Translations under genes and position numbers: made by a program | Notes under the pieces: model-generated | Databases searched by the model: none | Told to the model about the DNA's origin: nothing | What the model saw: the letters and a program-made list of their open reading frames with translations, nothing else | Origin: Pacificibacter marinus | GTDB lineage: Bacteria > Pseudomonadota > Alphaproteobacteria > Rhodobacterales > Rhodobacteraceae | Assembly (NCBI RefSeq): GCF_018860665.1 | Contig: NZ_JAHKPK010000003.1 | Span: 62,001-126,000 of the forward strand | Length of the DNA stretch: 64,000 nucleotides | Direction: 5' to 3' | In this document: piece after piece, positions 16,398-36,833 of the stretch | How the letters are laid out: every line of letters starts with the position of its first letter | How positions within the stretch are numbered: position 1 is the first letter of the stretch

Positions 16398-16420
16398 ACG
16401 GCACGGCAGGCCCGCGCGTG

Positions 16421-17527: not shown

Positions 17528-18318
17528 AGGTCTTAGTTCTGGGCACATCTCATTCGGCCAGCCTGCGCATGAGTGCCGATTGGATCAAGCGCGCCTATCC
17601 CAGCCTTGAGGTCGATTATTTTTCCCTTCCGGGGATCGTGCATTCCAGATCACTGATGATCGGCAGCACCTTTGGCCCGACGCCCAGCGATGCTTACGGC
17701 TGTAAAATGAGCCAGCAGTGGAACGGCAGCTTGATCGTCGATTTGGCGCCTTACGCGCAGATTTTTCATGTGGGTGAACGCTTTGCCATGGGCGCGGTCA
17801 CCCGTTTGATGGCCGATTACGACATCTTGGAACATGAAGAACGCAGCCTGCGCCCTGTGATGTCATTGAGTGCTGCGCGGGCCTTGATCGGCTCTGCGGT
17901 TTATGATTTCGTTGAGGCGCGCCACGATGTGTTTGGCGACGACAGACGCATCACCTTTATGCCTGCGCCCTATCCTTTGGCGCGCAGCGCGAAACGCGGG
18001 CCGGGGTTCGAGAACACGATGTCGCGGCTGAACAAACGTCACACAGCAGCCGATTGGTCGCAGATCTATGAGCACGCCATGGGGACCAGTTTGGCCGATT
18101 TTGGCTATCGGTTTATCGCGCAACCGATGCACACGCGTCAGGGTATTTTCGCAACCCAAGACATTTTTGCGCGCCCCAAGTCGTCGGTCGCAGATGTCGG
18201 CGACAAGGTCGACAACAGACATACCAATGCCAACTACGGGCAAGAGATTTTCGCAGCTTATGCACAAAGCCAATTGGGCCTCGCCCCGTTGGAAATGGCA
18301 TCAGCACCACAGTCATAA
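17524..18318 (+). CDS. SGNH-like protein paired with the GSCFA protein
   Basis: 264 residues from the ATG overlapping the upstream stop (ATGA). The N-terminus MKVLVLGTSHSASLRM resembles SGNH block I with GTSHS in the GDS position. MPAPYPLARS may correspond to block III, and the C-terminal VDNRHTNANYGQ contains a DxxH motif like the catalytic Asp-His of SGNH enzymes. No signal peptide is seen. A carbohydrate or ester substrate is a guess. It ends 67 bp before scoB. Confidence 0.75.
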   Translation: MKVLVLGTSHSASLRMSADWIKRAYPSLEVDYFSLPGIVHSRSLMIGSTFGPTPSDAYGCKMSQQWNGSLIVDLAPYAQIFHVGERFAMGAVTRLMADYDILEHEERSLRPVMSLSAARALIGSAVYDFVEARHDVFGDDRRITFMPAPYPLARSAKRGPGFENTMSRLNKRHTAADWSQIYEHAMGTSLADFGYRFIAQPMHTRQGIFATQDIFARPKSSVADVGDKVDNRHTNANYGQEIFAAYAQSQLGLAPLEMASAPQS

Positions 18319-19195: not shown

Positions 19196-20197
19196 ATGCA
19201 GCAAGAGCAAACCCTTTCCACCACCATCAAACCCACCGCAGGAGGCTCCAAAGCCTTGCGGGATCGTTTGGTCTTGCTGGGACTTATGGCCTTGCTGATC
19301 ATCGGCCTTTTGGGGGCTGCGGCCGCCACGGGCTGGTCTGAGACCCTGCACCAAATCCAAAAACTGTCCTTGTGGCAGGTCTGCGCGCTTCTGGCGCTAT
19401 CGCTGATGAATTATGGTTTGCGCGGTTTGCGTTGGCATCTGTTTGCCAAACGTCTTGGGCTTGATCTATCACTGATGGCCAATATGCGCCATTTCCTTGG
19501 CGGTTTTGCCATGACGGTCACGCCGGGGCGTGTGGGCGAATTGGTGCGGATGCGTTGGATACGGCGCGAAACAGGTTGGGCGGTTGAGCGCACTGCGCCT
19601 TTGGTTTTGGTCGATCGCGCCTCTGATTTGGCGGCGATGGCTGTGCTTTTGGCGGGCGCACTTTTGTTATCAACGTCAAAAATTGCTGGCGGCGTGCCTG
19701 TCACGCTTTTGGCTTTGCTTGCCGCATTTATCGCCACACGGCCCGCGCTTTTGGCGTGGTGCGCCCGTTTGGGGTATCAAACAACGGGCAAAGCCCCGCG
19801 TCTGTTTTCTAAGGTCCGCCGCGCGGCGCGCGCGCTGGAGCCGTTCTCGCAAGGCGGCACTTTGTTTCAAGGGTCCCTGTTGGCGTTCATCGGCTGGCTG
19901 GCCGAAGGGCTGGCCTTTTATCTATTACTGGCATGGATGGGCGCGGATGTATCTGCCTCCACCGCCATCGCGATATTCCTGTTTTCAACCTTGGCGGGCG
20001 GGCTGACCGGCGCGCCAGGCGGCGTGGGCGGCGCAGAAGCCGCGATGATCGCGCTGCTCAGCCTAGAGGGCGTGCCTTTGGCGCTGTCCCTGCCCGCCAC
20101 GGCCATCATTCGTTTGACCACACTTTGGTTCGCCATCGTGATCGGTCTGATCATTTTTCCCATCGCGGAACGCATATCAAAGAGAGTTCAAACATGA
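19196..20197 (+). CDS. Flippase-like integral membrane protein (LPG synthase TM / UPF0104 family)
   Basis: 333 residues with about eight hydrophobic segments. Conserved family features are LNYGLRGLRWHLFAKRLG, FLGGFAMTVTPGRVGELVRM and the C-terminal GGLTGAPGGVGGAEAAMIALL. Members include the flippase domain of MprF and YbhN-type proteins, proposed to move lipids or lipid-linked sugars across the inner membrane. Its stop overlaps the ATG of the DprE1-like gene (ATGA). I infer that it flips the lipid-linked product of the next two enzymes, but the substrate is not shown by sequence. Confidence 0.88.
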   Translation: MQQEQTLSTTIKPTAGGSKALRDRLVLLGLMALLIIGLLGAAAATGWSETLHQIQKLSLWQVCALLALSLMNYGLRGLRWHLFAKRLGLDLSLMANMRHFLGGFAMTVTPGRVGELVRMRWIRRETGWAVERTAPLVLVDRASDLAAMAVLLAGALLLSTSKIAGGVPVTLLALLAAFIATRPALLAWCARLGYQTTGKAPRLFSKVRRAARALEPFSQGGTLFQGSLLAFIGWLAEGLAFYLLLAWMGADVSASTAIAIFLFSTLAGGLTGAPGGVGGAEAAMIALLSLEGVPLALSLPATAIIRLTTLWFAIVIGLIIFPIAERISKRVQT

Positions 20198-21561
20198 GCT
20201 GGAAAACAGTAGACACCACAGGTTGGGGTCGCGCACATTGCACCTCTGGCGAGGTTGCCCGCCCTGAACGCGCATTGCAACTGAAACGCCTCTTGGCAAC
20301 GGCACCTGTACCGGCCTTTGGCATGCGCAGATCATATGGCGACGCGGCCCTGACTTCTGATGCGCGGTCTTTGGATATGACCCGTTTGGATCGCGTGCTG
20401 TCGTTCGATGACACCTCTGGCGTGGTGCATGTAGAAGCAGGCCTGCCGATTGGCGATCTGGGGCGAATGTTTGCCGCAAAAGGCTGGATTCCACCGGTGA
20501 TGCCGGGCACGGGCTTTGCGACGATCGGCGGTTGTATCGCCAATGATGTACACGGCAAAAACCACCATGTTGTGGGCTCTTTTGGGCAACACGTGACGGA
20601 AATCACCTTGATCCAAGGCGACAAAACCCGCGTGATTACACCGAAAGACGCTGGCATCTTTCAAGCCACCGTCGGCGGCTTAGGGCAAACGGGCGTGATC
20701 GCCTCGGCCAAGATACAAATGGCCCCCTGCAAAGGCGACCTGATGGTTTTGACAGAGCGGCGCATCGACAATTTGGATGAATTTTTCGTGGCCTTTGATG
20801 ACAGTTCTGCCGATTACACTGTCGGTTGGATCGATGCCACAGCCAAGGGCGCAAATCTAGGCCGCGGCGTTTTGGAAGAAAGCGAAATCACTTCGGGCGT
20901 GAACCCCGGCAGCGGCAAAAGCAAATCGGTACCGTTCAACGCGCCCCGCTGGGCTTTGTCTGCGCCGATCGTGCGTCTGTTCAACGAAATGTATTTTCGC
21001 CGCGTGCCCGCCTCTGGGCGCACAAGCGTCAAACCGATTACTGATCCGTTTTTCCCGCTGGATGCGATCCACAATTGGAACCGTCTGTACGGCAAAAACG
21101 GCTTTAACCAATTTCAATGCGTTGTGCCGCTTGAGGCCACGAATTGTTTGCGCATCATGCTGGAGCGGATTTCAGCCTCTGGGCTGGCTTCACCTTTGGC
21201 AGTGTTGAAAAAAATGGGCGCGGGACGCGCGGGCTATATGTCATTTCCGATGGAAGGCTACACTTTGGCGGTGGATTTTCCCAATCGCGGCAGCGCCGAA
21301 TATTTGGTGCGTGAATTGACCGATCTGGCGCGCGAGGCTGGCGGGCGGATTTACTTTGCCAAAGATGGCTTGGCCCAAGCGAAACAGATCGCAGGCATGT
21401 ATCCAGAACAAAAGGCATGGCAGCAAGAGGTGGCGAAAGCCGATCCAGAGCGCGCGATGGAAACTGATTTGGTGCGTCGCTTGCAATTGCGCGGTGCGCC
21501 AGCTGCGCCCAAGTTCCCTGAAACAAGCCTGTCTGCCAAAGACCAAGGAGAGAGCGCATGA
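20194..21561 (+). CDS. DprE1-like FAD-dependent oxidase (decaprenylphosphoryl-ribose 2'-oxidase family)
   Basis: 455 residues. The VAO-type FAD domain carries RRSYGD (45-50) and GGCIANDVHGKNHH (112-125), an almost exact match to the DprE1 flavin-binding segment. The C-terminal substrate domain has WNRLYGKNGFNQFQ, LAVDFPNRG and IYFAKDG. Lys390 corresponds to the catalytic Lys418 of mycobacterial DprE1, and Ala359 sits 31 residues before it, in the place of Cys387. Mycobacterial DprE1 oxidises the 2'-OH of polyprenyl-phospho-ribose, the first half of epimerisation to arabinose. The start overlaps the upstream stop, and the end overlaps the SDR gene. Confidence 0.88.
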   Translation: MSWKTVDTTGWGRAHCTSGEVARPERALQLKRLLATAPVPAFGMRRSYGDAALTSDARSLDMTRLDRVLSFDDTSGVVHVEAGLPIGDLGRMFAAKGWIPPVMPGTGFATIGGCIANDVHGKNHHVVGSFGQHVTEITLIQGDKTRVITPKDAGIFQATVGGLGQTGVIASAKIQMAPCKGDLMVLTERRIDNLDEFFVAFDDSSADYTVGWIDATAKGANLGRGVLEESEITSGVNPGSGKSKSVPFNAPRWALSAPIVRLFNEMYFRRVPASGRTSVKPITDPFFPLDAIHNWNRLYGKNGFNQFQCVVPLEATNCLRIMLERISASGLASPLAVLKKMGAGRAGYMSFPMEGYTLAVDFPNRGSAEYLVRELTDLAREAGGRIYFAKDGLAQAKQIAGMYPEQKAWQQEVAKADPERAMETDLVRRLQLRGAPAAPKFPETSLSAKDQGESA

Positions 21562-22310
21562 GCAAAGCCTCACAAAACGAGACATGGATTATTCTGGGCG
21601 CAACCTCGTCAATGGCGCGGGCCTTTGCACGCGATGTGGCAGCGCGCGGCGCGACCCTGTTGGTTTGCGGACGCGACATGGATGATCTGGCCAGCACAGC
21701 GCAAGATTGCTTGGCACGCGGCGCGAAAATGGCTGAGCCATGTGCCTTTGATGCGCGCGACACATCCAGCTTTGCCCCGATTATTGAACGCGCCACGTCG
21801 GAAGACGGCGTGATCAACTGCGCCGTTTTCGTAGGCTCGATGCCAACCCAAGACGCGATTGATGCAGAGCCTGATTTGATCAATGGCACGGTACAAGACA
21901 ATTTCACCGGCCCCGCGACGTTTTTGCAAATGCTGGCTCCTGAATTGGAAAGCCGCGGCAGTGGCACGGTCGTGGGCGTTGGATCTGTTGCGGGGGATCG
22001 GGGGCGCATCGGCAATTATGTTTACGGATCGGCCAAATCGGGTTTTGCCACCTATCTGTCAGGCTTACGCAACCGTTTGACCCGCGCAGGCGGCCATGTG
22101 GTCACTGTGAAACCGGGTTTTGTCGACACGGCGATGACATGGGATGTGGAAGGCATGTTCTTGGTCGCGGCCCCTGAAAAGGTGGCGTCAGACATAATGA
22201 AGGCCGTCACCAAGAAAAAGAATGTGATCTACACGCCGTTTTTCTGGCGCTACATCATGCTGATCATCCGCCATATCCCTGAGTTTATCTTTAAAAAGAT
22301 GTCTATCTGA
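21558..22310 (+). CDS. DprE2-like short-chain dehydrogenase/reductase
   Basis: 250 residues. The Rossmann NAD(P) loop is IILGATSSMARAFA, and the catalytic residues are Ser143 (VGSVAGDRGR), Tyr156 and Lys160 (YVYGSAKSG). VTVKPGFVDTAMT matches the DprE2 pattern. In mycobacteria DprE2 reduces the keto intermediate from DprE1 to polyprenyl-phospho-arabinose. The C-terminal FFWRYIMLIIRHIPEFIFKKM is hydrophobic and basic, consistent with membrane association. The ATGA overlap with the DprE1-like gene indicates coupled expression. A prenyltransferase for making the lipid-ribose substrate is not in the window. Confidence 0.88.
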   Translation: MSKASQNETWIILGATSSMARAFARDVAARGATLLVCGRDMDDLASTAQDCLARGAKMAEPCAFDARDTSSFAPIIERATSEDGVINCAVFVGSMPTQDAIDAEPDLINGTVQDNFTGPATFLQMLAPELESRGSGTVVGVGSVAGDRGRIGNYVYGSAKSGFATYLSGLRNRLTRAGGHVVTVKPGFVDTAMTWDVEGMFLVAAPEKVASDIMKAVTKKKNVIYTPFFWRYIMLIIRHIPEFIFKKMSI

Positions 22311-22582: not shown

Positions 22583-23581
22583 CTAATTCGATGAGCGCAG
22601 CGCGTTGGTGGCGAAGACGCAGCCATCGGAGTAGAGTTCGGGCTGAGTGACGCAAAGCCTGCGTGCGACTTGCCACGCAGCAAGGACTTTGGGCACATAG
22701 GCGCGGGTTTCGGGATATGGCGGCACGCCACGATTGTCTTTGACCGCGTTTTCGCCTGCATTGTAGCCCGCCAGAGCCAAGATCACATCGCCTTTAAACT
22801 CTTTGATTAACCAATCCAGATAGGTGATCCCGCCAGATATATTTTGTGAAGGGTCCATGGGATCTGTGACGCCAAAGCGCGCGGCTGTGGCGGGGATCAA
22901 TTGCATCAAGCCCTGCGCCCCTGCTCCGCTCACCGCATTCGTTTTGCCTGCAGATTCCACCGCGATAACAGCCAAAGCCAAAGCGGGGCTGACATCTGTA
23001 CCAATAGAATGGATCAGTAAGTCTGTGCCATATCTATTGGCCAAATCCGTGACATGTTGAAAGCTGGGGGTAGACAAGACTGCTGCACCGTCATTGTCGA
23101 GCGCGGCCAAAGCCTGCGCAAAACGTTCAGGACCAGCACCCGCCACATCATGGGGCACAACAGTCCAATACCAGTCTTGCAGATCGGCAGGCGCTTTTGG
23201 CACATCGGCCAAAGGCATCACAGTGCCTGCGGGCAGCGGACCTGTTGGACCGCTGGGGCCTTGTGGGGCGCTGGGTGATGAGGGCCGGATTTGAACGGTG
23301 ATGCGATTGGTGGTGCCCGATTTGGGTGGTGTCAGGCGACGCGGTGTCACTTTGGGCCAAGGGGCTGGCGTCAGCGAGGGGGTAACCTTTTTAACAGTAC
23401 TTCCAGTTTTGGGGCCGATAACGCTGGGGCCAGTTGGACCGGTTGGACTGGTTTGCGCCAAGACCGCAAGCGGTGCTGCACTGGCGAGACCCCATATGAG
23501 ACCCGTATAAAGGCAACATTTCGGAACACCTGTGCGTGGCACCCTGGCCCGTATCCTGGCCCAAATAGTGATTCCACTCAT
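22583..23581 (-). CDS. Lytic transglycosylase (SLT family) with Gly-Pro-rich tracts
   Basis: 332 residues from Met at 23581 (an upstream Met at 23608 is possible but has no ribosome site). A signal peptide (..LIWGLASAAPLAVLAQ) leads into a low-complexity region with SPTGPTGP and QGPSGPTGPLP, short collagen-like Gly-Pro tracts. The C-terminal SLT domain has the catalytic Glu in LAVIAVESAGKTN, followed by GAGAQGLMQLIPATAARFG and LALAGYNAGENAV. It cleaves peptidoglycan glycan strands in the periplasm. Its divergence from the Tad locus suggests it may open the wall for the pilus, which is an inference. Confidence 0.92.
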   Translation of the reverse strand: MSGITIWARIRARVPRTGVPKCCLYTGLIWGLASAAPLAVLAQTSPTGPTGPSVIGPKTGSTVKKVTPSLTPAPWPKVTPRRLTPPKSGTTNRITVQIRPSSPSAPQGPSGPTGPLPAGTVMPLADVPKAPADLQDWYWTVVPHDVAGAGPERFAQALAALDNDGAAVLSTPSFQHVTDLANRYGTDLLIHSIGTDVSPALALAVIAVESAGKTNAVSGAGAQGLMQLIPATAARFGVTDPMDPSQNISGGITYLDWLIKEFKGDVILALAGYNAGENAVKDNRGVPPYPETRAYVPKVLAAWQVARRLCVTQPELYSDGCVFATNALRSSN

Positions 23582-23608
23582 GAATATGCCCAACCTGCTT
23601 TTTCTCAT

Positions 23609-23938: not shown

Positions 23939-24130
23939 ATGAAATTTTTTAAACTCTACAAAAACTTCCAAGCAGACGAAGACGGCGCAGTAACTGTTGA
24001 CTGGGTGGTTTTGACTTCCGCAATCGTCGGCCTCGGTGTTGCAGTTCTCGCAACTGTTGCAAAAGGCACAAAAGAAATTGGTTCTACAATTTCTTCCGAT
24101 CTCGCTGGCCGCTCGGTCGTAACTTACTAA
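23939..24130 (+). CDS. flp: Flp/Fap-type pilin, copy 1
   Basis: 63 residues, the structural subunit of the Tad pilus. The leader MKFFKLYKNFQADEDG ends at Gly16, and predicted prepilin peptidase cleavage before Ala17 leaves a 47-residue mature pilin with one hydrophobic helix (VTVDWVVLTSAIVGLGVAVL). The usual Glu+5/Tyr+6 of Flp pilins is Asp+5/Trp+6 here. The C-terminus is Ser/Thr-rich and ends VVTY. Start chosen by the GGAGGG ribosome site and by identity with copy 2. Confidence 0.93.
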   Translation: MKFFKLYKNFQADEDGAVTVDWVVLTSAIVGLGVAVLATVAKGTKEIGSTISSDLAGRSVVTY

Positions 24131-24181
24131 GTCAAAATATCTCAAAGTCTTTGGCTTTGATCTGAACACAGGAAATACATC

Positions 24182-24373
24182 ATGAAATTCTTCAAACTCT
24201 ACAAAAACTTCCAAGCAGACGAAGACGGCGCAGTAACAGTGGACTGGGTTGTTTTGACTTCCGCAATCGTAGGCCTCGGTGTTGCTGTTCTCGCAACTGT
24301 TGCAACAGGCACAAAGAAAATTGGTTCTACAATTTCTTCCGATCTCGCTGGCCGCTCGGTCGTAACTTACTAA
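24182..24373 (+). CDS. flp: Flp/Fap-type pilin, copy 2
   Basis: 63 residues, identical to copy 1 except VATGTKKIG in place of VAKGTKEIG. It has the same Gly16 cleavage site and Asp+5/Trp+6. The ribosome site is weaker (AGGAAATACATC before the ATG) than that of copy 1. It is followed by two inverted repeats that probably reduce read-through into cpaB, so that pilins are made in excess over the assembly machinery. Confidence 0.92.
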   Translation: MKFFKLYKNFQADEDGAVTVDWVVLTSAIVGLGVAVLATVATGTKKIGSTISSDLAGRSVVTY

Positions 24374-24451: not shown

Positions 24452-24662
24452 CCATTTGGGCCGTCTTCCTGGCTGACCATGAGATGTGAGACGATTGACC
24501 CAGAAGGGACGACAAAGATGCCCTGACAGCACTTTGTTATACAAAAACAGTAGAATCCCAGCTGTTGACGCGCGAAAACCACGAATTCGCCATATTCAAC
24601 AGTCATTTTCGAACAGTGAGCAGAAGGCCCAAATCAAGGGTCAGAGGCAAGAGGATGTGAAG

Positions 24663-25508
24663 ATGCGTATTATTTTTGGATTGGTTTTGGTGGTTGGGAT
24701 GGCCCTTGCGGGCTTTGCTGTTCACATTACGAGAGGTTACCTCTCAACCTATCAAGCGGATTTGGATCGCGAAAAAGCGTTGCGCCAGAATATCGTGAAA
24801 ACGGAAGAGATTTACATCGTGACAACGAAAGTTGCATACGGTGATCCCATTTTAGCCGAGGCGGTGACGCTGGCAAAATGGCCGGTAGACTTCATGCCCG
24901 AAGGCGTGTTTCGCACCGAAGAAGAATTATTCCCGCAAGGCGCCGATGTGCCTCGGATTGCCCTGCGTGCGATTGAACCGATGGAGCCGCTTCTGGGTGT
25001 CAAAGTGACCGAACCCGGTGCTGATGCAGGCGTGGCCTCGCGACTGAGCAAAGGTATGCGCGCCTTCGCGATCCGTGTAGATGTGTCCACAGGTGTGTCC
25101 GGATTCTTGCGTCCTGGCGATAAAGTTGACGTCTATTGGACAGGTAATTTGCCGGGTCAGAACAACGGTGACGTCACCAAATTGATCGAATCCTCTGTGC
25201 CGCTCGTGGCGATTGACCAAATGGCCGACGGTGAGCGGTCTTCGCCCACCATCGCACGCACTGTGACCGTAGAAATCACACCACAACAGGTTGCCGCATT
25301 GGCGCAGGCACAATCCACTGGTCGCTTGTCCCTGTCCCTTGTCGGCCGCGATGATGATACCGTGATCGATGGTGTTGAGATCGACCAAAAGACTCTTTTG
25401 GGCATCGAAGCCGCAGCACAAATTGTCGCTGCTCCCGAAGAGCGCGTCTGCACAGTGCGTACCCGCAAAGGCGCAGAGATCATCGATATGCCGATCCCCT
25501 GTAGCTAA
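24663..25508 (+). CDS. cpaB: Flp pilus assembly protein CpaB (RcpC)
   Basis: 281 residues from ATG at 24663, preceded by GAGG. The protein has an N-terminal membrane helix (MRIIFGLVLVVGMALAGFAV), a SAF domain (about residues 50-115: YIVTTKVAYGDPILAEAVTLAKWP) and an RcpC domain with RAFAIRVDVSTGVSGFLRPGD. CpaB is an inner-membrane/periplasmic part of the Tad machine near the secretin. Upstream in-frame codons lack a signal sequence, so I used the later start. Confidence 0.94.
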   Translation: MRIIFGLVLVVGMALAGFAVHITRGYLSTYQADLDREKALRQNIVKTEEIYIVTTKVAYGDPILAEAVTLAKWPVDFMPEGVFRTEEELFPQGADVPRIALRAIEPMEPLLGVKVTEPGADAGVASRLSKGMRAFAIRVDVSTGVSGFLRPGDKVDVYWTGNLPGQNNGDVTKLIESSVPLVAIDQMADGERSSPTIARTVTVEITPQQVAALAQAQSTGRLSLSLVGRDDDTVIDGVEIDQKTLLGIEAAAQIVAAPEERVCTVRTRKGAEIIDMPIPCS

Positions 25509-25565
25509 TAAAGCACAAGGCAACGCTTCATTTGCTCAAACTTAGCGGCACAGCGCAAAGTTTTG

Positions 25566-25600
25566 AAAAGGCAGCATCTGATAAAAGGTGCCGCCTTTTT
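25566..25600 (+). terminator. Terminator-like hairpin between cpaB and cpaC
   Basis: A 13-bp stem with one mismatch (AAAAGGCAGCATC with GGTGCCGCCTTTT) followed by T residues. It implies that cpaC may have its own promoter within 25601-25776, or that read-through is partial. Confidence 0.7.
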
Positions 25601-25776
25601 CAATGACTTGTCGGCAAAACCCGGTCGTGACCTAGAGGCAACCTGTGACTTGTCCACATCACCAAAGCCAGCCAAGCGATTGATTCTTGCAAACAAACCG
25701 GTTTTCGGCCATGGTAACCGCAATAGGGTCGTTAGAACCCAAATCTAGAGGCGTGATCATTTCAGAGGCAGGTCAC

Positions 25777-27189
25777 ATGAAAATGATGAATATACTTAAG
25801 GCAGCCCTATTGGGGTGCGCCGTCGCGAACATGGTGCCGCAGGTGGCATTTGCAGATAAACTTCGGGTTATGACGGGATCGCCTTCTGGGGCTTTGAACG
25901 TCCCAATGAACCGCGCTGTGGTCGTTGAAAGTGACGAACCCTTTGCGGAAATTTCGGTGGCCAACGCCGAGATTGCAGATATTTCGACATTGTCTGACAG
26001 ATCGATTTATGTGCTTGGGCGCTCACCTGGCCTGACGACGATGACGCTTTTGGCACCGGACGGATCTTTGATCACCAACGTTCAGATCCAAGTCACCCCA
26101 GATATTTCAGAATTCAAAGAACGCTTGCGTCAGATCATGCCCAATGAGGCGATTGAAGTGCGCACCGCCAACGATGGCATCGTTTTGTCAGGGGTGGTCC
26201 AATCGGTCACCTCGATGGAACGCGCAGTTGAACTGGCCAATCGTTATGCGCCGGATCGTGTATCCAATCTGCTAAACATCGGCGGCACCCAGCAGGTGAT
26301 GTTGAAAGTGCGCTTTGCGGAAATGTCGCGCTCAGTCTCGAAAAACCTTTCAGGATCTTTGGCTTTCGTGGGCAGCGTCGGAACAAACGGCAACTGGACC
26401 GGCTCTGAGACCGGTAGTTTTCTAAGCGACGACAACGGCGTAACCACTGCGCTCACCGCAAAAGATGATTCATTGGGCGCGTTGAAACTTGGCGCGTCTA
26501 TCGGCGGCACCGAGATTGCTGTGTTGCTCGAAGCGATGGAAAGCAAAGGCATCGTGCGCACACTCGCCGAGCCAAACCTGACTGCCCTGTCTGGCCAGCA
26601 AGCCAAATTCCTTGCGGGTGGCGAATATCCAATTCCTGTTGCCAGCGAAAACGGCATCACCATTGAATACAAACCTTTCGGTGTTGAGCTCGACTTTACC
26701 CCCCGTGTTGTGAACGGCGATCAGATCAACTTGGAACTCAAAGCAGCTGTGTCTGGCATTGACACCACAGTGAACTACAACCTTGAGGGATTTTCGGTGA
26801 GCTCGTTCACGCGTCGCGAGACATCGACGACTGTGGAAATGCGGGACGGCGAAAGCTTTGCCATCGCGGGCCTGTTGCAAGACGATTTCCAAGACCTTGC
26901 CGGCCAAGTACCATGGTTGGGCGACATCCCCGTTTTGGGTGCCCTATTCCGGTCAACCGATTATTCACGTGACCAATCTGAGCTGGTGATCATCGTTACG
27001 CCGCATCTGGTCACGCCGACCAATGGACTAGCTTTGGCTTTACCAACGGATCGCGTGAAAATTCCAACAGAATCTGAATTGTTTTTGTTTGGTAAAACTT
27101 ATGGCGGCACTGAGCGCCCGAAAACAGGTGCTGCGGCTGAAGTCGCCAAGCAAGACTTTTCCGGTTCTTACGGCTATGTGATGGAGTAA
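25777..27189 (+). CDS. cpaC: Tad pilus secretin CpaC (RcpA)
   Basis: 470 residues from ATG at 25777. A signal peptide (MKMMNILKAALLGCAVANM.., cleavage near AFA|DK) is followed by an N-terminal pilus-secretin domain (LNVPMNRAVVVESDEPFAEI), a BON-like domain (EVRTANDGIVLSGVVQSV) and the C-terminal secretin domain with VRTLAEPNLTALSGQQAKFLAGGEYPIP and VPWLGDIPVLGALFRS. It forms the outer-membrane channel for the Flp pilus. The gene ends four bases before the OmpA-like lipoprotein gene. Confidence 0.95.
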   Translation: MKMMNILKAALLGCAVANMVPQVAFADKLRVMTGSPSGALNVPMNRAVVVESDEPFAEISVANAEIADISTLSDRSIYVLGRSPGLTTMTLLAPDGSLITNVQIQVTPDISEFKERLRQIMPNEAIEVRTANDGIVLSGVVQSVTSMERAVELANRYAPDRVSNLLNIGGTQQVMLKVRFAEMSRSVSKNLSGSLAFVGSVGTNGNWTGSETGSFLSDDNGVTTALTAKDDSLGALKLGASIGGTEIAVLLEAMESKGIVRTLAEPNLTALSGQQAKFLAGGEYPIPVASENGITIEYKPFGVELDFTPRVVNGDQINLELKAAVSGIDTTVNYNLEGFSVSSFTRRETSTTVEMRDGESFAIAGLLQDDFQDLAGQVPWLGDIPVLGALFRSTDYSRDQSELVIIVTPHLVTPTNGLALALPTDRVKIPTESELFLFGKTYGGTERPKTGAAAEVAKQDFSGSYGYVME

Positions 27190-27193
27190 GATC

Positions 27194-27853
27194 ATGCGCG
27201 CAAATATCAAAATGACACTGGCTGCGACAAGCCTTTTGGCTCTCTCTGCTTGCTCTGATTCACCTGTCTTTGCGTCTTGGACACAAGAGGCCGGCGGATA
27301 TTTGGACAACGGCACCTTTGGCAACGCGACGATGAACAACACTTTGATTCAAAATGGTGAATTGTCTTACGCCATTAACATGAATGAACGTTTTGCCGCC
27401 GAAGTTGACACCACAGTGAACTTTGAATTCAATTCTGCGATCTTGGATGGGCCTGCGCGCGAGACGATCAAGCGACAAGCCGCATATATCGCGCAATTCC
27501 CCGAAGTACGTTTCCGCGTCTTTGGCCACACTGATTTGGTTGGCTCTGATGCTTCGAACAAAGCGCTTGGGATGCGTCGCGCCCGTGCTGTTGTGAATGA
27601 AATGGTCCGTCACGGGATTTCAAGATCACGCGTCGAAGCGGTGATTTCCGAGGGCGAAACACAGCCCTTGGTCGCCACACAGGGTCCAGAACGTCGCAAT
27701 CGTCGCACGGTGACCGAAGTGTCAGGCTTTGTCCAAAACGCACCGCTGATCATGGACAGCCGTTACGCCGATATCATTCACCGTGAATACATCGAAAGTG
27801 CGACAGCGCCTTCTGCCCTTGTAGATTATGGCCAATCTCAGCTAGCGGAGTAA
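27194..27853 (+). CDS. OmpA-family lipoprotein of the Tad locus
   Basis: 219 residues. The lipobox LALSAC puts the lipid on Cys20. An OmpA C-terminal peptidoglycan-binding domain spans about residues 75-180: VNFEFNSAILDGPA, FGHTDLVGSDASNKALGMRRARAV and ERRNRRTVTEV. It occupies the place of CpaD between cpaC and cpaE, and probably anchors the secretin to peptidoglycan. It is co-transcribed with cpaC (4-bp gap). A weak hairpin follows. Confidence 0.9.
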   Translation: MRANIKMTLAATSLLALSACSDSPVFASWTQEAGGYLDNGTFGNATMNNTLIQNGELSYAINMNERFAAEVDTTVNFEFNSAILDGPARETIKRQAAYIAQFPEVRFRVFGHTDLVGSDASNKALGMRRARAVVNEMVRHGISRSRVEAVISEGETQPLVATQGPERRNRRTVTEVSGFVQNAPLIMDSRYADIIHREYIESATAPSALVDYGQSQLAE

Positions 27854-27861
27854 ACATCGTC

Positions 27862-27891
27862 CCGAAATAGCGAATTATTATGCTATTTTGG
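27862..27891 (+). terminator. Possible hairpin after the OmpA-like lipoprotein gene
   Basis: AAATAGC (27865-27871) and GCTATTT (27882-27888), extendable to 10 bp with one G-T pair. AT-rich and weak; it may be an attenuator before cpaE. Confidence 0.4.
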
Positions 27892-28047
27892 CCCTATTGT
27901 TGCCCACATTGCCCGTCACCTTAGACCCAATAGGAGCAGTTCGTTTGACAGTGAGTCGGACGACATGCGCCAGGGACCAAGGGGCGGGCTTTGTTTTTAA
28001 AGCAAACCTTTTTGGCTTTGGCGCTCCAAGGTGAAAAGGACGCGGCA

Positions 28048-29295
28048 ATGACGAGTGAAACTGCATTGCATACTGAACAAGACCAATTGGTTGCGTGTAC
28101 AATCTCACGCGATGTTCAGAATTTCGATCTGTTGGTCGAAGACATGGAGACCGAACTGGGAGAATCCTGGGGCGATCTTAACTTTGAGGATGCGCGGCAA
28201 TTCTTCCGGCAACCTGAATCAGGCGCATTAAAATTTGTCGCCGTCGCCATTGACCAAGAAGACGAAGGTATGCTTGCCATCGTTGCAGATTTGATCAAGT
28301 CGGCCAAGGCTCAGAATGTTAAAGTCATTTTGATCGCGGATGAGGTCAGCCCGATGGCGCTGCACCACTTGCTACAACTTGGCGCTGAAGATTTTATCCC
28401 CTACCCCTTGCCCGAGAATGCTTTGTCAGAAGCCATCGCGCGTCTTGACGCACCGCGCAAGGCGCATGCTTCGGATTTTATCGAGCAAGCTACGCCCCCA
28501 AAACGCGCAGCCAATGGTGTGGTCTTGCCGGTTCAATCTGTTTCAGGCGGCGCAGGCGCGACGACTTTGGCGGTGAACTTGGCCTGGGAACTTGCCCATG
28601 TTGAAAAATCCGAACCGCAACCGCGTGTGTTGTTAATGGATTTAAATCTGCAATTCGGATCGGTTTCTACCTATCTTGATTTGCCGCGCCGCGAAGCGGT
28701 TTATGAGCTGCTGTCCTCGACAGAACATATGGATGACGAAGCGTTCAAATCGGCATTGACCAACTTCAACGATTCAATTTCGGTGCTCACCGCGCCAGCA
28801 GATTTACTGCCGCTTGATTTCATCGAGTCAGAGGATTTGGATCGCATCTTGGAAATGGCGCGCCATCATTTTGACTATGTGATCATCGACATGCCATCGG
28901 TGTTTGTGACTTGGTCCGAAGTGATATTGAACCAAGCTGACATCATCTTTGCCCCTTTCGAGCTGGATATGCGGTCGGCGCAAAACATATTGCGTCTCAG
29001 ATCCGCCTTGCGGGCCGAAGACCTGCCGTTTGAAAAGTATCGCTTTTTGTTGAACCGCGCCCCCAAAGGCATGGACCTATCAGCAAAATCACGGATCAAA
29101 CGCATGTCCGAGAGCTTGGAAATCGCCATTGAGGTGCAACTGCCAGATGGCGGCAAAGCCGTGCTTCAATCGAATGACCAAGGGCTGCCTCTGGCGATCG
29201 ACGCAGGTAAAAACCCGCTGCGCAAAGAGATCCAAAAGCTCGCCGCATCGATACACGTACGCCAAAGCGAAGCAATGAGCGCAGCAGCACAATAA
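28048..29295 (+). CDS. cpaE: Tad pilus localisation ATPase CpaE (TadZ)
   Basis: 415 residues from ATG at 28048 (ribosome site AAGGA, 7-base spacing). An N-terminal receiver-like domain (about 10-140) precedes a ParA/MinD-type ATPase domain with SVSGGAGATTLAVNLA. This deviant P-loop lacks the signature lysines (Ala and Thr where Lys and Thr/Ser are usual), as seen in other TadZ proteins. RVLLMDLNLQFGSV and DYVIIDMPSVF are the Walker A' and B regions. CpaE positions the pilus machine at the cell pole. Confidence 0.93.
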   Translation: MTSETALHTEQDQLVACTISRDVQNFDLLVEDMETELGESWGDLNFEDARQFFRQPESGALKFVAVAIDQEDEGMLAIVADLIKSAKAQNVKVILIADEVSPMALHHLLQLGAEDFIPYPLPENALSEAIARLDAPRKAHASDFIEQATPPKRAANGVVLPVQSVSGGAGATTLAVNLAWELAHVEKSEPQPRVLLMDLNLQFGSVSTYLDLPRREAVYELLSSTEHMDDEAFKSALTNFNDSISVLTAPADLLPLDFIESEDLDRILEMARHHFDYVIIDMPSVFVTWSEVILNQADIIFAPFELDMRSAQNILRLRSALRAEDLPFEKYRFLLNRAPKGMDLSAKSRIKRMSESLEIAIEVQLPDGGKAVLQSNDQGLPLAIDAGKNPLRKEIQKLAASIHVRQSEAMSAAAQ

Positions 29296-29337
29296 GACCT
29301 CGTGAGGGGGTTTCAGGTTTAGGTTTAGGGGAATTAC

Positions 29338-30798
29338 ATGTTTTCGAGATACAAAAAGACAGACACAAAACAAGCGCGCGCCGTTACAGGCGCGCCGGCC
29401 CAAGACGCGCCTGTGTCCCAAGCTCCCCAAGTTGCAGCCTCTGCACCGAAGCCAAAAGCGACAGTACAGCGTCGTGACATTCAGCGCACAGAAGTCATCG
29501 TGCCTGAGGAAAAAGACCGCAAACGCAAGGAACGCATTTCCGACATCAAAGTGTCGATGCACCAACGCTTGCTGGAAGACTTGAACTTGGCCGCGCTGGA
29601 AAGCGCGCCGGAAAAAGAGTTAAAGCTAGAGATTGCCGCCATCACCACAGAGTTCCTCAATGAGGAAGGTATGGTTCTCAATCGCGACGAGCGGATGGTC
29701 TTAAACCAAGATTTATACGATGAAGTCAAGGGCTTGGGGCCGCTGGAAACCCTGCTCAAAGACGACACTGTGAACGATATCTTGGTCAACGGTCCGAACC
29801 AGATATTCGTGGAACGCGACGGTAAATTAATGCTGTCGGATGTGACATTTAAAAACGAAAAGCACCTGTTGCGCATCATCGATAAGATCGTGTCGGCCGT
29901 TGGCCGTCGCGTCGATGAATCCAACCCTTACGTCGATGCGCGTCTCGCGGACGGGTCACGTTTCAACGCCATGGTGCCGCCTGTCGCGGTGGATGGGTCT
30001 TTGGTGTCCATTCGTAAATTTAAAAAAGAAAAACTGGCGATTGACGATCTGGTCAAATTTGGGGCCTTCACCGAAGAAATGGCCGCCTATTTGCAAGCTG
30101 CCGTGTCCACACGACTGAACGTCATCGTGTCAGGTGGGACGGGCTCTGGTAAAACGACCACGCTCAATGCGCTGTCATCCTTTATTGCCGATGACGAACG
30201 TATCCTAACCATTGAGGACACGGCCGAGCTTCAACTGCAACAAACACATGTGGGCCGGATGGAATCCCGTCCCGCCAACGTCGAAGGCAAAGGTGCAGTG
30301 ACCCAGCGCGATTGTTTGCGCAATGCTTTGCGGATGCGCCCTGACCGCATCATCGTGGGGGAAACCCGCGGTGAAGAAGTTATCGATATGTTGCAAGCGA
30401 TGAACACCGGTCACGATGGATCAATGACCACAATTCACGCCAACTCGGCACGTGATGGTGTGTCTCGTCTGGAAAACATGGTCGCCATGGCCGGGATCGA
30501 AATGCCGCTCAAAGCGGTGCGCAGCCAGATCTCAAGCGCGGTGAACCTGATCGTGCAAGCCTCGCGTTTGCAAGACGGGTCACGCCGCATGGTGTCGATC
30601 ACTGAAATCACCGGCATGGAAGGCGACGTCATTTCGATGCAAGAAGTCTTTCGCTACCAACGCACAGGCCTGACGCCTGACAATAAAATTATCGGTCATT
30701 TCACAGCGACCGGCGTGCGCAGCCACTTTTCCGAGCGGTTCAAAATGTGGGGTTATGATTTGCCACCATCATTGTTCGAACCCACGAAACCGCAGTAA
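29338..30798 (+). CDS. cpaF: Tad pilus assembly ATPase CpaF (TadA)
   Basis: 486 residues, a type II/IV secretion-family motor. Walker A GGTGSGKT is at residues 266-273, and the Asp box is [14 protein letters not shown]. The Walker B and His box regions are [14 protein letters not shown] and [15 protein letters not shown]. The N-terminal about 60 residues are charged and low complexity. It powers pilin polymerisation, and in Caulobacter the homolog also drives retraction. It lies 42 bp after cpaE and 14 bp before tadB. Confidence 0.97.
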
Positions 30799-30812
30799 GG
30801 ACACGAACAGCC

Positions 30813-31781
30813 ATGGCCATTTCAACTGATCTTATCATCTACGTCGTCGTCTTTATTGCCGTGCTTTTGCTGGTCGAAGGCATTTATCTGACCGTCTTCG
30901 GCAAATCCATTTCGCTCAACAGCCGCGTGAACCGTCGCTTTGAGATGCTGGAAAAAGGGGGCAACCGCGAAGAGGTGCTCAACCAGCTGCGCAAAGAAAT
31001 GGGTCAGCACCTAAAATCGCGTCAGGTGCCGCTCTACTCCATTCTGGCAGAGAAAGCGCAGAAAGCGAACATCGCCTTTTCACCGGTTCAACTGATTGGA
31101 ATTATGGCGCTTTTGGCGATGATTTCCTTTGTGGGCTTAACTGTAGGCACCGCGACATCAGCCCCATTACGCGCAGGCGTCGCTTTGGGCATGGGGGTCA
31201 CAGCCGTATTTGTGTGGATCAACAACAAAGCTAAAAAGCGGATGTCGATGATCGAAGAACAGCTGCCAGAAGCCGTTGAATTGATGGTGCGGTCCTTGCG
31301 TGTGGGCCACCCGTTTTCCAGCGCCTTGACCATCGTGTCCAAAGAGGTCCCCGACCCGCTTGGCACTGAGATGGGCGTGATCGCCGATGAATCAGCTTAC
31401 GGGCGAGATGTGGGCGAGGCGTTGAAAGACATGGCCGAACGGCTTGATATGCAAGACATGCGCTTTCTGGCCGTGGCCGTGTCGATCCAACAGCAATCGG
31501 GTGGTAACCTGGCTGAAGTTTTGGAAGGCTTGTCCAAGGTTATTCGTTCAAGGTTCAAACTGTTTCGCCGCGTGAAAGCGATCACGGCTGAGTCGAAATG
31601 GTCCGGCATGTTCCTGTCATTGTTCCCGCTTGGGTGCTTGTTGGTCATCTTGGTGGGCAAACCCGATTACTACGACACCGTGAAACATACCGCCGCGTTT
31701 ATTCCCGCCTGTCTTGTGGTTGCTGGCTTTCTGGTCGCCAATATTTTCATCATGCGCTCCCTTGTCGACATCAAAGTCTAG
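30813..31781 (+). CDS. tadB: Tad inner-membrane platform protein TadB
   Basis: 322 residues with a T2SSF (GspF) domain: EEQLPEAVELMVRSLRVGHPF, LDMQDMRFLAVAVSIQQQSGGNLAEVL and a C-terminal pair of membrane helices. A first helix lies at residues 6-26 and further helices near 90-135. With TadC it forms the inner-membrane platform on which CpaF acts. It is 14 bp behind cpaF and 18 bp before tadC. Confidence 0.95.
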   Translation: MAISTDLIIYVVVFIAVLLLVEGIYLTVFGKSISLNSRVNRRFEMLEKGGNREEVLNQLRKEMGQHLKSRQVPLYSILAEKAQKANIAFSPVQLIGIMALLAMISFVGLTVGTATSAPLRAGVALGMGVTAVFVWINNKAKKRMSMIEEQLPEAVELMVRSLRVGHPFSSALTIVSKEVPDPLGTEMGVIADESAYGRDVGEALKDMAERLDMQDMRFLAVAVSIQQQSGGNLAEVLEGLSKVIRSRFKLFRRVKAITAESKWSGMFLSLFPLGCLLVILVGKPDYYDTVKHTAAFIPACLVVAGFLVANIFIMRSLVDIKV

Positions 31782-31799
31782 ACGGGGAAAGGACATACC

Positions 31800-32783
31800 A
31801 TGCTAGAGTTTTTCACATCTATTTTTGGCGAACAGCTTGGCCCCTTCGGCCCGGTGATTATCATGGGCGTGCTGGGCATCGTTCTGATGCTGTTTGCAAC
31901 CCCTGCCCTGTTGAAAAAACGCGATGATCCTCTAGATCGTTTGCGTGCGCAGGTGCGTGGCAATGCCCAAACGGCAAAGGCCAAAAACGGCAAGACAACG
32001 AAATTGCGTCAGACCCAAAAGAAAGACAAGCTTGAGAAATACGCCGATTTCCTAGAACCACAGAACGAAGAAGAATATTCTGCCGTTCAGTTGAAACTGA
32101 TCCAAGCGGGCTATCGCGGCAAAAACGCAGTGCGCATGTATAACTTTGCGCAGCTTGCTTTGGGCATGGGCCTTTTGGCCATCGGTGTGATTTTGGCAGT
32201 GATCAAAAGCGGCAACGCTGAGGTCTCAACCCAGTCGATGATTATGACTGTTCTGATCCCTGCTGGCATCGGCTATATGGCGCCAAAATACTGGGTCACA
32301 CGCCGCGTCGAAGCACGCAAAGAAGAGATCACCAACGGCTTTCCAGACGCGCTTGACTTGATGCTGGTCTGTGTGGAAGCGGGCCAATCGCTGGATCAAT
32401 CCATCGTGCGCGTGGCACGTGAAATTCGCTCGGGTTTTCCCGCATTGGCCGATGAGTTTGAGATCGTCAGCTATGAGATCAAAGCCGGTAAAGACAAGAT
32501 CAACGTGTTGCGCGATATGTCCGAGCGTGCTGGCGTGGCCGATGTGGCCTCATTCGTGACCGTGCTGATTCAATCTCAGTCCTTTGGGACCTCTATTGCC
32601 GATGCTTTGCGGATTTACGCGAGTGAGATGCGCGACAAACGGGTGATGCTCGCTGAGGAAAAGGCCAACACTTTGCCGACAAAAATGACCTTGGCGACCA
32701 TGATGTTGACCGTGCCACCGCTGTTGATCATTTTGATCGGCCCATCTGTTTATGACATCGTCACCTTGCTGAAAGGGTTCTAA
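31800..32783 (+). CDS. tadC: Tad inner-membrane platform protein TadC
   Basis: 327 residues with a T2SSF domain: FPDALDLMLVCVEAGQSLDQS, FVTVLIQSQSFGTSIADALR and EEKANTLPTKMTLATMM. Membrane helices occur near residues 18-40, 115-160 and at the C-terminus. It is paralogous to TadB and pairs with it. The next gene, tadD, starts 74 bp later, after a hairpin. Confidence 0.95.
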   Translation: MLEFFTSIFGEQLGPFGPVIIMGVLGIVLMLFATPALLKKRDDPLDRLRAQVRGNAQTAKAKNGKTTKLRQTQKKDKLEKYADFLEPQNEEEYSAVQLKLIQAGYRGKNAVRMYNFAQLALGMGLLAIGVILAVIKSGNAEVSTQSMIMTVLIPAGIGYMAPKYWVTRRVEARKEEITNGFPDALDLMLVCVEAGQSLDQSIVRVAREIRSGFPALADEFEIVSYEIKAGKDKINVLRDMSERAGVADVASFVTVLIQSQSFGTSIADALRIYASEMRDKRVMLAEEKANTLPTKMTLATMMLTVPPLLIILIGPSVYDIVTLLKGF

Positions 32784-32800
32784 GCCTTTACGATATAGCC

Positions 32801-32829
32801 TATAGGGGCTGACGTTGCGCGCCCCTATA
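32801..32829 (+). repeat. Hairpin in the tadC-tadD gap
   Basis: A 9-bp perfect dyad TATAGGGGC / GCCCCTATA separated by 11 bases. There is no T run. It could be an mRNA processing or stability element that sets lower levels of the TPR lipoproteins. Confidence 0.5.
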
Positions 32830-32857
32830 TGCCCTATAAAGCAAAGGCCCGAAAGAC

Positions 32858-33460
32858 ATGTGTCTACGTCATGATCCGTCTTCCCCAAAGCTGGTACTGC
32901 GTCGGGTTGTCTTGGCGTGTTTGAGCCTCGCGACGTTGACAGGGTGTCATGATCCCAACGCGTTGGCCCCACTCAAAGAGGGCGGCGTCTATGCGCCAAC
33001 AGGTATCAAGGCGAATGTCGCTTCCGTAGACGGGTTGATCGTGGGCCACAGATTGATGGCATCCGGCGAATATGAACTGGCCTTGCGTGCTTACTTGCGT
33101 GCGGCTGGGGATCGCGGCCTTGATGTGGATGTTATGTCAGCCATCGGGTCAGCCAATCTTAAGCTGGGGCGTTTGGGCCAAGCTGAAAAAATTCTGCGCC
33201 GCGCGGTTGAGGCGGACGAAACCTTCGTGCCGGCATGGAATAATTTGGGCGTTGTTTTGATGGAACAACGCAATTACGGCGAAGCAGAGCGCGTGTTCCG
33301 TATGGCCTTCGCCCTTGATAGTGGCCAATCTGCCGAAATTCGTGACAATTTACGCTTGGCGCTCGCCAAATTGAAAAATCCTGATACAATTATTCAAAAT
33401 GAGAGTGATTTTACCTTGGTGCGTCGAGGAACAGGGGATTACCTGATCTTGGCACGCTAA
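32858..33460 (+). CDS. tadD: TadD-like tetratricopeptide lipoprotein, first copy
   Basis: 200 residues. A hydrophobic signal ends in lipobox ATLTGC (Cys30). About two to three TPR units follow (ELALRAYLRAAGD.., KLGRLGQAEKILRRAVEADE, AWNNLGVVLMEQRNYGEAERVF). TadD lipoproteins are needed for Tad pilus assembly, probably as secretin pilotins. A second TPR lipoprotein follows 125 bp later, so the locus encodes two. Confidence 0.9.
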   Translation: MCLRHDPSSPKLVLRRVVLACLSLATLTGCHDPNALAPLKEGGVYAPTGIKANVASVDGLIVGHRLMASGEYELALRAYLRAAGDRGLDVDVMSAIGSANLKLGRLGQAEKILRRAVEADETFVPAWNNLGVVLMEQRNYGEAERVFRMAFALDSGQSAEIRDNLRLALAKLKNPDTIIQNESDFTLVRRGTGDYLILAR

Positions 33461-33585
33461 TCGGACCTCGGGAACAACCCGGCGGCGGCGATCTCAAATC
33501 ATACGTTCTGTGTGATTTTGGGCAAACCGGATGCAAAAAGGCCGATATCTGGTGAAACGGGCAGTCAAAAGAGGTGGCAGGCACC

Positions 33586-34443
33586 ATGCGCAAAGTGATT
33601 TTAACTTCGCTGACCCTTTCGGGCGCGATAATCTTGACCGGTTGCGGTCAATCAAATTTCGGTGACGTGAAGCGAGCAAAAACATCCGTCAATGTCATCG
33701 ATGAAAACAACCTCAATGATGTGATGTTGTCGGCGGCAGACCCAAACGAGTCTGTGTCTTATTTTACACGAGCCTTAACTTCAGATCCGAACCGTATCGA
33801 TCTGATGCGCGGGCTGGCCCAATCCTTGATCCGAGCACGCAATAATACTGCAGGCGTTAAAGCCTGGAAGGGCGTTGTTCAACACGAGGACGCCACCAGC
33901 ACGGACCGCGTGGATTACGCGGATGCACTGATCCGCTCCGGCGATTGGAAAGAAGCGCAAGTACAACTGAACCTTGTTCCACCAACCCATGAAACATACA
34001 AACGCTACCGTTTGGAAGCGATGATCGCCGACAGCAATCAAGACTGGAAAAAAGCCGACAGCTTTTACGAGACAGCGGTTGGCCTGACCACAAAGCCATC
34101 GTCAGTGCTGAACAACTGGGGCTATTCCAAAATGACCCGTGGCGAATTCACTTCGGCCGAGCGGCTGTTTGCAGAAGCGATCACCTATGATCCTGCCTTG
34201 TTCACCGCAAAAAACAATCTTGTGTTGTCACGCGGCGCTCAAGGTAAATACGAATTGCCCGTCGTCACGATGACCCAAGTCGAGCGTGCGCAGCTTTTGT
34301 ATACGCTGGGTCTCTCTGCGGTAAAATCTGGCGATGTCACCATCGGCAAAGGGTTGATCAAAGAAGCCATCGACACCCACCCACAGCATTTTGAAACGGC
34401 CGTGCGATCTTTGCGTGCGCTTGAATCCAACGTCACGAATTGA
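33586..34443 (+). CDS. TadD-like tetratricopeptide lipoprotein, second copy
   Basis: 285 residues from ATG at 33586 (GTG at 33574 is possible but has a poor ribosome site). Lipobox IILTGC places Cys20 as the lipidated residue. TPR motifs run through most of the protein (SVSYFTRALTSDPNRIDLMR, VLNNWGYSKMTRGEFTSAER, SAVKSGDVTIGKGLIKEA). It is about 85 residues longer than the first TPR lipoprotein. Its TGA stop overlaps the ATG of the prepilin peptidase gene. Confidence 0.88.
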   Translation: MRKVILTSLTLSGAIILTGCGQSNFGDVKRAKTSVNVIDENNLNDVMLSAADPNESVSYFTRALTSDPNRIDLMRGLAQSLIRARNNTAGVKAWKGVVQHEDATSTDRVDYADALIRSGDWKEAQVQLNLVPPTHETYKRYRLEAMIADSNQDWKKADSFYETAVGLTTKPSSVLNNWGYSKMTRGEFTSAERLFAEAITYDPALFTAKNNLVLSRGAQGKYELPVVTMTQVERAQLLYTLGLSAVKSGDVTIGKGLIKEAIDTHPQHFETAVRSLRALESNVTN

Positions 34444-34937
34444 TGCTCAACCTTGATGCGACTGCGGCCTTGTGGATTTTGATTGTCACCACGCCGCTAT
34501 CTTTTCTAGCCGCGTTCAATGACTTGGCGCGGATGAAATTGCCCAATGCCCTCGTGATGGCTTTGGTGGCTATCTACGTTGTGATCGGGCCGTTTTTGTT
34601 CGATTGGCCGACCTATTTTTGGGGCTTTGCCCATGGCATTGTCATGTATCTATTTGGCATGTTCGCCTATGCCTTTATGGGAGTTGGCGCGGGCGACGGC
34701 AAATATGCGGCCGCCATGGCGATGTTCATTCCCGCCCATGATGCGCGCTTTGTGGTGCCGCTGTTTTGCGCTTACTTGATCGGGGCTTTTGTCACCCATC
34801 GGCTGTTTCGCGCCATACCTGCTGTGCGCAACGCGACGCAAACTTGGGTGTCTTGGGGGCACAAAAAATTCCCCGCTGGGCTGGCATTGGCAGGGGCTTT
34901 TACCACATATTTTGGAATCGTCGCCTTTGGCTGGTAA
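34443..34937 (+). CDS. cpaA: Prepilin peptidase CpaA (TadV), A24 family
   Basis: 164 residues. The two catalytic aspartates are Asp27 (AAFNDLARMKLPN) and Asp85 (VGAGDGKYAA, a GxGD motif). Four to six hydrophobic segments are visible, and it lacks the N-methyltransferase domain of type IV PilD, as expected for Tad. It cleaves the Flp pre-pilins after Gly16. The start overlaps the previous stop (TGATG). Confidence 0.92.
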   Translation: MLNLDATAALWILIVTTPLSFLAAFNDLARMKLPNALVMALVAIYVVIGPFLFDWPTYFWGFAHGIVMYLFGMFAYAFMGVGAGDGKYAAAMAMFIPAHDARFVVPLFCAYLIGAFVTHRLFRAIPAVRNATQTWVSWGHKKFPAGLALAGAFTTYFGIVAFGW

Positions 34938-36668: not shown

Positions 36669-36833
36669 CACTGCCTCGTTTCATTTTTTTCAAAGATTAG
36701 GCTCAAACGCCATGGTTTGCAAAGAATTGCGCGGTAAATTCTTGGCGTGGCGCGTCAGGCTGGCTACACTGTGCTAACATCGCGGGCCGTGCGAGCATTC
36801 GCCAAAACAGCGCAGCGGAAGAGGACAAGATAG

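Follow-up and report, generated by a model that had tools for sequence, protein, structure and literature searches.

The question raised by this locus is what an alphaproteobacterium does with the two enzymes by which mycobacteria convert a lipid-linked ribose into its arabinose form. In a stretch of 64,000 nucleotides from Pacificibacter marinus (contig NZ_JAHKPK010000003.1; this whole stretch is hereafter the window), three overlapping genes encode a membrane protein of the UPF0104 family, a homologue of DprE1, the antitubercular drug target, and a homologue of DprE2 (Table 1). A sequence-only reading of the window had proposed that they supply a lipid-linked D-arabinofuranose donor, and this proposal is supported by a prenyltransferase fusion elsewhere in the genome and by DprE1 and DprE2 as the best matches of the two enzymes in the PDB. 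I consider it probable that the genes belong to a dispersed three-component pentofuranosylation system, one with the UPF0104 protein as flippase and an orphan protein with a predicted glycosyltransferase fold of type C (GT-C), here called gtc, and with a pilus as the presumed acceptor. Judging from homology, the DprE1 and DprE2 homologues would oxidise C2 and then reduce it again to give polyprenyl-phospho-D-arabinofuranose; the UPF0104 protein, given its fold and its replacement by GtrA in relatives, would flip this lipid to the periplasm; and gtc, given its fold and co-inheritance, would transfer the arabinofuranose to an acceptor. This reading is built on computed evidence: which genes are present and in what order, how their products are predicted to fold, and which of them are inherited together.

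The three open reading frames are as the sequence-only reading had drawn them, with ATGA at both junctions, and its family assignments hold. The first protein matches the Pfam family LPG_synthase_TM, i.e. UPF0104, with 154 bits. The second contains GGCIANDVHGKNHH and matches FAD_binding_4, as claimed for an oxidase that uses flavin adenine dinucleotide (FAD); it aligns with the solved DprE1 at E 3.2e-67 across residues 9-432 of 455, with xylitol oxidase second at 1.3e-10. Its HGKNHH motif (H120 to H125) and K390 are invariant in 19 of 19 sequences and aligned with DprE1. K390 corresponds to the conserved lysine of the C-terminal region, Lys418 in the DprE1 numbering, and the DprE1 cysteine Cys387 aligns with Ala359. 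The third protein is a short-chain dehydrogenase/reductase (SDR) by its match to adh_short, and the Ser143, Tyr156 and Lys160 named before are present and invariant in all 15 aligned sequences (15 of 19 were used); its profile finds DprE2 as the best PDB entry (E 2.8e-36, profile positions 4-246 of 246), the next SDR following at 3.8e-19. As dprE1 and dprE2 are neighbours in all 18 relatives examined, and the UPF0104 gene adjoins the pair in 11 of them, the three genes do not stand together by chance.

The prenyltransferase expected to provide polyprenyl-phospho-ribose had been reported as missing from the window, and rightly so: the gene is found on another contig (C65), beside tex, where it encodes a fusion of an HAD phosphatase domain with a UbiA domain, 479 residues long. 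The best solved relative is the mycobacterial decaprenyl-phosphate phosphoribosyltransferase Rv3806c (8j8j; E 4.7e-31, residues 191-373), PF01040 is matched above its cut-off, and PRK08238 scores 625.5 against a cut-off of 351. N243, D244, D247 and D251 of the UbiA domain and D14 and D16 of the HAD domain are invariant in 18 aligned fusions (18 of 19, one frameshifted gene being left out), and these correspond to the UbiA aspartate motif and the HAD DxD motif. By sequence, the protein fits a polyprenyl-phosphate phosphoribosyltransferase (PPPRS) joined to a phosphatase. The genome holds three UbiA-family genes, and the one within the window, at about 5493-6443, looks like a heme or quinone enzyme.

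Two sets of genomes were compared, one of 41 and a wide one of 120, the latter each at least 95% complete, each of a different genus code and all of the same family. In the first set, full-length copies of the fusion, one of them split by a frameshift, occur in the same 19 genomes as strong DprE1 matches (E below 1e-100). In G018 (L053, L067) the PPPRS gene is apparently frameshifted near its end, giving two overlapping pieces. The fusion stands beside dprE2 in two of these relatives and less than 4 kb from DprE1 in 24 of 33 genomes of the wide set; its separation from the dprE genes in the window genome is probably a local rearrangement.

The flippase role that had been guessed for the UPF0104 protein is supported by a predicted model with the fold of the MprF flippase domain, by the match to the family profile, and by a distribution complementary to that of GtrA, while a PDB sequence search with the protein gave no match worth keeping. 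Among the 41 genomes UPF0104 is found in 12 and GtrA in 7, with no overlap, and their union is the set of 19 with DprE1. Among the 41 genomes of the wide set that carry a DprE1, a full UPF0104 gene is present in 32 and GtrA in 11, with both in two and neither in none, and the genus with a truncated UPF0104 gene also carries GtrA (the GtrA alignment comprises nine sequences, and four of the seven Celeribacter-group genes were checked against Pfam). The cargo proposed for the UPF0104 protein, polyprenyl-phospho-arabinofuranose, has indirect support in this complementary distribution. GtrA is also found in three genomes with the fusion and without DprE1 (G072, G128, G148).

The candidate transferase gtc is a membrane protein of 545 residues, encoded where the Tad pilus operon ends, on the opposite strand. 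The fold predicted for it is GT-C, its nearest structural neighbours being AftA, which is the best Foldseek match, and ArnT, and two acidic residues in the first outer loop, E37 and D39, are invariant in 19 of 19 sequences. When gtc was compared by HHalign with GT-C-like proteins encoded near PPPRS genes, a remote homologue in G136, which keeps the aspartate alone, matched and the five others did not. In L189 (7663-11695) PPPRS, GtrA and a divergent gtc homologue stand in a row, in a genome without a TadC match.

gtc is co-inherited with the donor genes. In the smaller set, gtc, strong DprE1 and the full-length fusion are confined to the same 19 of 41 genomes. The wide set was searched at E thresholds of my choosing, 1e-40 for DprE1, 1e-20 for the fusion, 1e-10 for UPF0104 and GtrA and 1e-3 for the others, and here two types of DprE1 are separated by a gap in score (573 vs. 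374 bits), with the window type in 33 genera (32 full and one, G095, truncated by a contig end) and the second type in 8. Of 36 genera with gtc, 33 belong to the 33 with window-type DprE1 and three to the 87 others (Fisher's test, p = 2e-26, phylogeny uncorrected). PPPRS, a flippase, be it UPF0104 or GtrA, and the GT-C protein are inherited together in both sets. In-frame stops had been flagged in some matches; in the nine genomes checked, each proved to be the normal end of an intact gene. One highly fragmented genome (G121) has gtc and shows neither DprE1 at E 1e-40 nor TadC. The second DprE1 type is found in a compact PPPRS-gtrA-dprE1-dprE2 operon (L184, L185, L186, L187, L190, L192).

The presence of the Tad pilus as such was considered as a cause of this co-occurrence and rejected, as gtc (36 of 120 genera) and TadC (104 of 120) are not associated (p = 0.39). 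Among the 104 genera with TadC, which was searched with a single protein query so that some positives are weakly scoring Tad paralogues, gtc and window-type DprE1 occur together in 32 and are both absent from 71; gtc stands without this DprE1 in one, and this DprE1 without gtc in none. On a quick Tad tree of 41 loci of my choosing (21 gtc-positive and 20 gtc-negative, with TadC matches not near contig ends), the gtc label changes seven times, at least five of them forced by strong branches; the module is therefore gained and lost around a Tad locus that stays in place. Two module-free genomes (G070, G110) show empty sites at both ends of the Tad operon, with scoB leading directly to the transglycosylase gene and the prepilin peptidase gene to the ATPase gene, and in G063 the dprE side, the only side examined, is empty as well.

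The shared neighbourhood could nevertheless mislead. In 24 of 33 genomes no more than 25 kb separate DprE1 from gtc, and joint transfer or loss could produce co-occurrence if gtc were a GT-C enzyme of a different pathway that travels along with its dprE neighbours at the Tad locus. I regard this as unlikely, as gtc borders one end of the Tad operon and the dprE genes the other, and the operon persists in genomes that have neither. Furthermore, G130 retains gtc at the Tad locus, and the DprE1, the fusion and the GtrA of this genome belong to the second type and lie about 43 kb away, and G136, which has no TadC, contains a divergent gtc homologue only, directly after PPPRS-GtrA.

Several observations weigh against the proposed system, and those concerning its enzymes are given here, those concerning the pilus further below. 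The DprE1 homologue scores 362 bits, under the NCBIfam equivalog cut-off of 500, and the DprE2 homologue 161 bits, under a cut-off of 250, and for this reason I call both homologues and not equivalogs; the latter passes another SDR model, PRK07102, with 269.6 against a cut-off of 267. These scores, and an FAD family that includes xylitol and lactone oxidases, leave a small chance that the pair makes another lipid-linked pentose or acts on an unrelated alcohol. I think this very improbable, as DprE1 and DprE2 lead the PDB matches of the pair by far and the Rv3806c-like fusion is found in 40 of the 41 genomes carrying either type of DprE1. The fusion gene also occurs in eight genomes of the wide set without DprE1. 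The model of gtc is of moderate confidence (pLDDT 72) with a TM-score of 0.33 to AftA, and the protein has no Pfam or NCBIfam match and no relevant PDB sequence match, and resembles no named transferase in these searches. PPPRS fusions in genomes without DprE1 were seen in L203 and L204, and also in L194, L195, L201, L202 and L205, two of them beside proteins with multiple transmembrane segments; such fusions may possibly belong to ribofuranose systems.

The remaining question is where the sugar would go. Because gtc sits in the Tad locus, a Flp pilin or another Tad component is favoured as the acceptor, and by this position I put the chance that it is one of them at about even. Two near-identical tandem Flp pilin genes (23939-24373) open the Tad operon, and relatives carry one to several copies. 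In 31 of the 33 genomes having both, gtc lies within 10.5 kb of TadC, the other two having them on separate contigs, and every one of the 32 genomes that combine DprE1, the fusion, a flippase and gtc has TadC as well (hypergeometric p = 0.005, phylogeny uncorrected). Among named gtc loci (the best 80 of 164, cpaC not being among the Tad genes counted), tadD2 is found in the flank of 73.

On the other side, seven of the 80 named loci lack tadD2 in the available flank, and five of these have long flanks on both sides, without a Tad gene nearby. The pilin sequences yield no clear signature of an acceptor: Flp pilins from genomes with and without gtc are not distinguished by their Ser/Thr share (p = 0.34), and a C-terminal aromatic residue is present in 12 of 19 gtc-positive and 1 of 19 gtc-negative loci (p = 4e-4, phylogeny not controlled; 19 of 21 and 19 of 20 loci were kept, after dropping pilins that lack an AVTVDWVVLT start or contain an X). 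A gtc-negative genome adjoining the window on the Tad tree carries a pilin much like that of the window. The pathway and its GT-C enzyme could be as proposed and the acceptor an envelope polysaccharide (O antigen, capsule or adhesive polysaccharide), for which Tad is a mere gene location, and to this I would give a substantial, though clearly less than even, chance. The five loci fit such an acceptor, as does the lack of an association between gtc and TadC, and the best-described three-component systems modify O antigens (PMC11127046). Against it stand the 32 complete-module genomes that are TadC-positive without exception and the proximity of gtc to TadC. Moreover, the TadC-free G132, the locus of which (L124) is that of Marivivens donghaensis, has DprE1, UPF0104 and gtc, and it also lacks the fusion and shows no dprE2 in its locus of 20 kb; I infer a single deletion that spans dprE2 to a TPR gene. 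That many Rhodobacterales decorate their Tad (Flp) pili with D-arabinofuranose, by way of a new Tad-locus GT-C family and a UPF0104/MprF-type flippase that GtrA can replace, is a tentative reading, the chance of which I put at slightly less than even.

In 18 relatives the dprE pair is located between scoB and the lytic transglycosylase gene, followed by the Tad genes where the sequence extends far enough. Within the Tad operon, the prepilin peptidase and the TPR genes were identified by Pfam; the remaining gene names are presumptive, taken from the sequence and from the usual Tad gene order. An AAA-type ATPase gene is next to gtc in 79 of the 80 named loci, the 80th beginning at gtc, and remains beside the prepilin peptidase gene in two gtc-free genomes. 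Upstream, at 16418-18318 of the window, a GSCFA-domain gene and a gene of 278 codons split the scoA/scoB CoA-transferase pair; of 18 relatives, 10 have GSCFA at this site, which cannot be judged on two contigs that begin at scoB.

Table 1. Features of the window discussed in the text, with coordinates, strand and the evidence for each assignment
Feature	Position	Strand	Evidence
UPF0104/PF03706 membrane protein, proposed polyprenyl-phospho-arabinofuranose flippase	19196..20197	+	Open reading frame, Pfam LPG_synthase_TM, predicted fold
DprE1 homologue, proposed FAD-dependent polyprenyl-phospho-ribose 2-oxidase	20194..21561	+	PDB DprE1, E 3.2e-67; HGKNHH, K390
DprE2 homologue, proposed SDR 2-keto reductase	21558..22310	+	Best PDB match DprE2, E 2.8e-36; S143/Y156/K160
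SLT-domain lytic transglycosylase, between dprE genes and Tad operon (context)	22583..23608	-	Pfam; gene order in relatives
Flp pilin gene 1, possible acceptor	23939..24130	+	Sequence read
Flp pilin gene 2, possible acceptor	24182..24373	+	Sequence read
Tad pilus operon: cpaB, cpaC, OmpA-like, cpaE, cpaF, tadB, tadC, two TPR genes, prepilin peptidase	24486..34937	+	Open reading frames
gtc, orphan GT-C membrane protein, proposed arabinofuranosyltransferase	35034..36671	-	Fold, E37/D39, co-inheritance with DprE1
AAA-type ATPase adjoining gtc (context)	36834..38147	+	Weak AAA matches (Pfam)

If the proposed system is real, an orphan protein family would gain a testable function as arabinofuranosyltransferase, UPF0104 proteins would gain a testable cargo in polyprenyl-phosphate sugars, and DprE1-type enzymes would be extended to a conserved role in marine bacteria. 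gtc would be a candidate enzyme of Tad-pilin glycosylation, parallel to the arabinosylation of type IV pilins in Pseudomonas. A glycosylated Flp1 is described for Aggregatibacter (PMC6182317), and RcpC had been implicated (PMC12307814), with no transferase named in the passages concerned, and no named Tad-pilin glycosyltransferase appeared among the papers listed on Tad-pilus glycosylation or alphaproteobacterial DprE1. The terms glycosyl, arabinos, flippase and oxidase are all absent from a study of rhodobacteral Tad genes (PMC8383342), and a literature search with most subscription papers outside its scope gave no report of UPF0104, an orphan GT-C protein and Tad in combination. D-arabinofuranose on the pilins of Pseudomonas paraeruginosa is described as giving resistance to pilus-specific phages (PMC12369383), so one could ask directly whether it does the same in marine Rhodobacterales.

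The comparison with known systems shows which parts are familiar. The three-component pentofuranosylation systems of Citrobacter youngae O1 and O2 consist of a PPPRS with an HAD phosphatase domain, a flippase and a GT-C enzyme, and their arabinofuranose versions include DprE1/DprE2 homologues (PMC11127046); all of these have counterparts here, although the prototype has a MATE flippase and a GT136 transferase; in the present system the candidate flippase is UPF0104, the GT-C protein is an orphan at the Tad locus, and the components are dispersed. The mycobacterial decaprenyl-phospho-arabinose pathway (Rv3806c, Rv3807c, DprE1/DprE2, Rv3789, Emb/Aft) comprises the same chemical steps, and its Rv3806c, DprE1 and DprE2 are the best PDB matches and AftA the best Foldseek match of gtc; however, in the present system the HAD phosphatase is fused to UbiA, the flippase is of the UPF0104 type, and no arabinan polymer is expected. 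DprE-type enzymes are not new to an alphaproteobacterium, because the rhizobial noeC, noeH and noeO are described as steps in the synthesis of the D-arabinofuranose donor for Nod factors (PMC5080398). By description, noeCNHOP thus resembles the present set in its arabinose-donor steps, but its acceptor is a lipo-chitooligosaccharide, its proposed transferase is NoeP, and no link to Tad is described. The predicted model of the UPF0104 protein has the fold of the flippase domain in MprF, and GpgF is a predicted flippase of the same PF03706/UPF0104 family (PMC12713373), whereas the cargo proposed here is a polyprenyl-phosphate sugar and not a phospholipid. In Pseudomonas paraeruginosa, type IVa pilin is arabinosylated by way of PSPA7_6245-6251 and TfpW, a GT-C enzyme encoded beside the pilin gene (PMC12369383); the present system would share the D-arabinofuranose donor pathway and a GT-C gene near a pilin gene, the likeness of gtc to TfpW being one of description, and differs in its Tad/Flp pilus. 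Three features set the present system apart: a candidate flippase of the UPF0104 type, a GT-C family that is an orphan, and the position of the genes around the Tad pilus locus.

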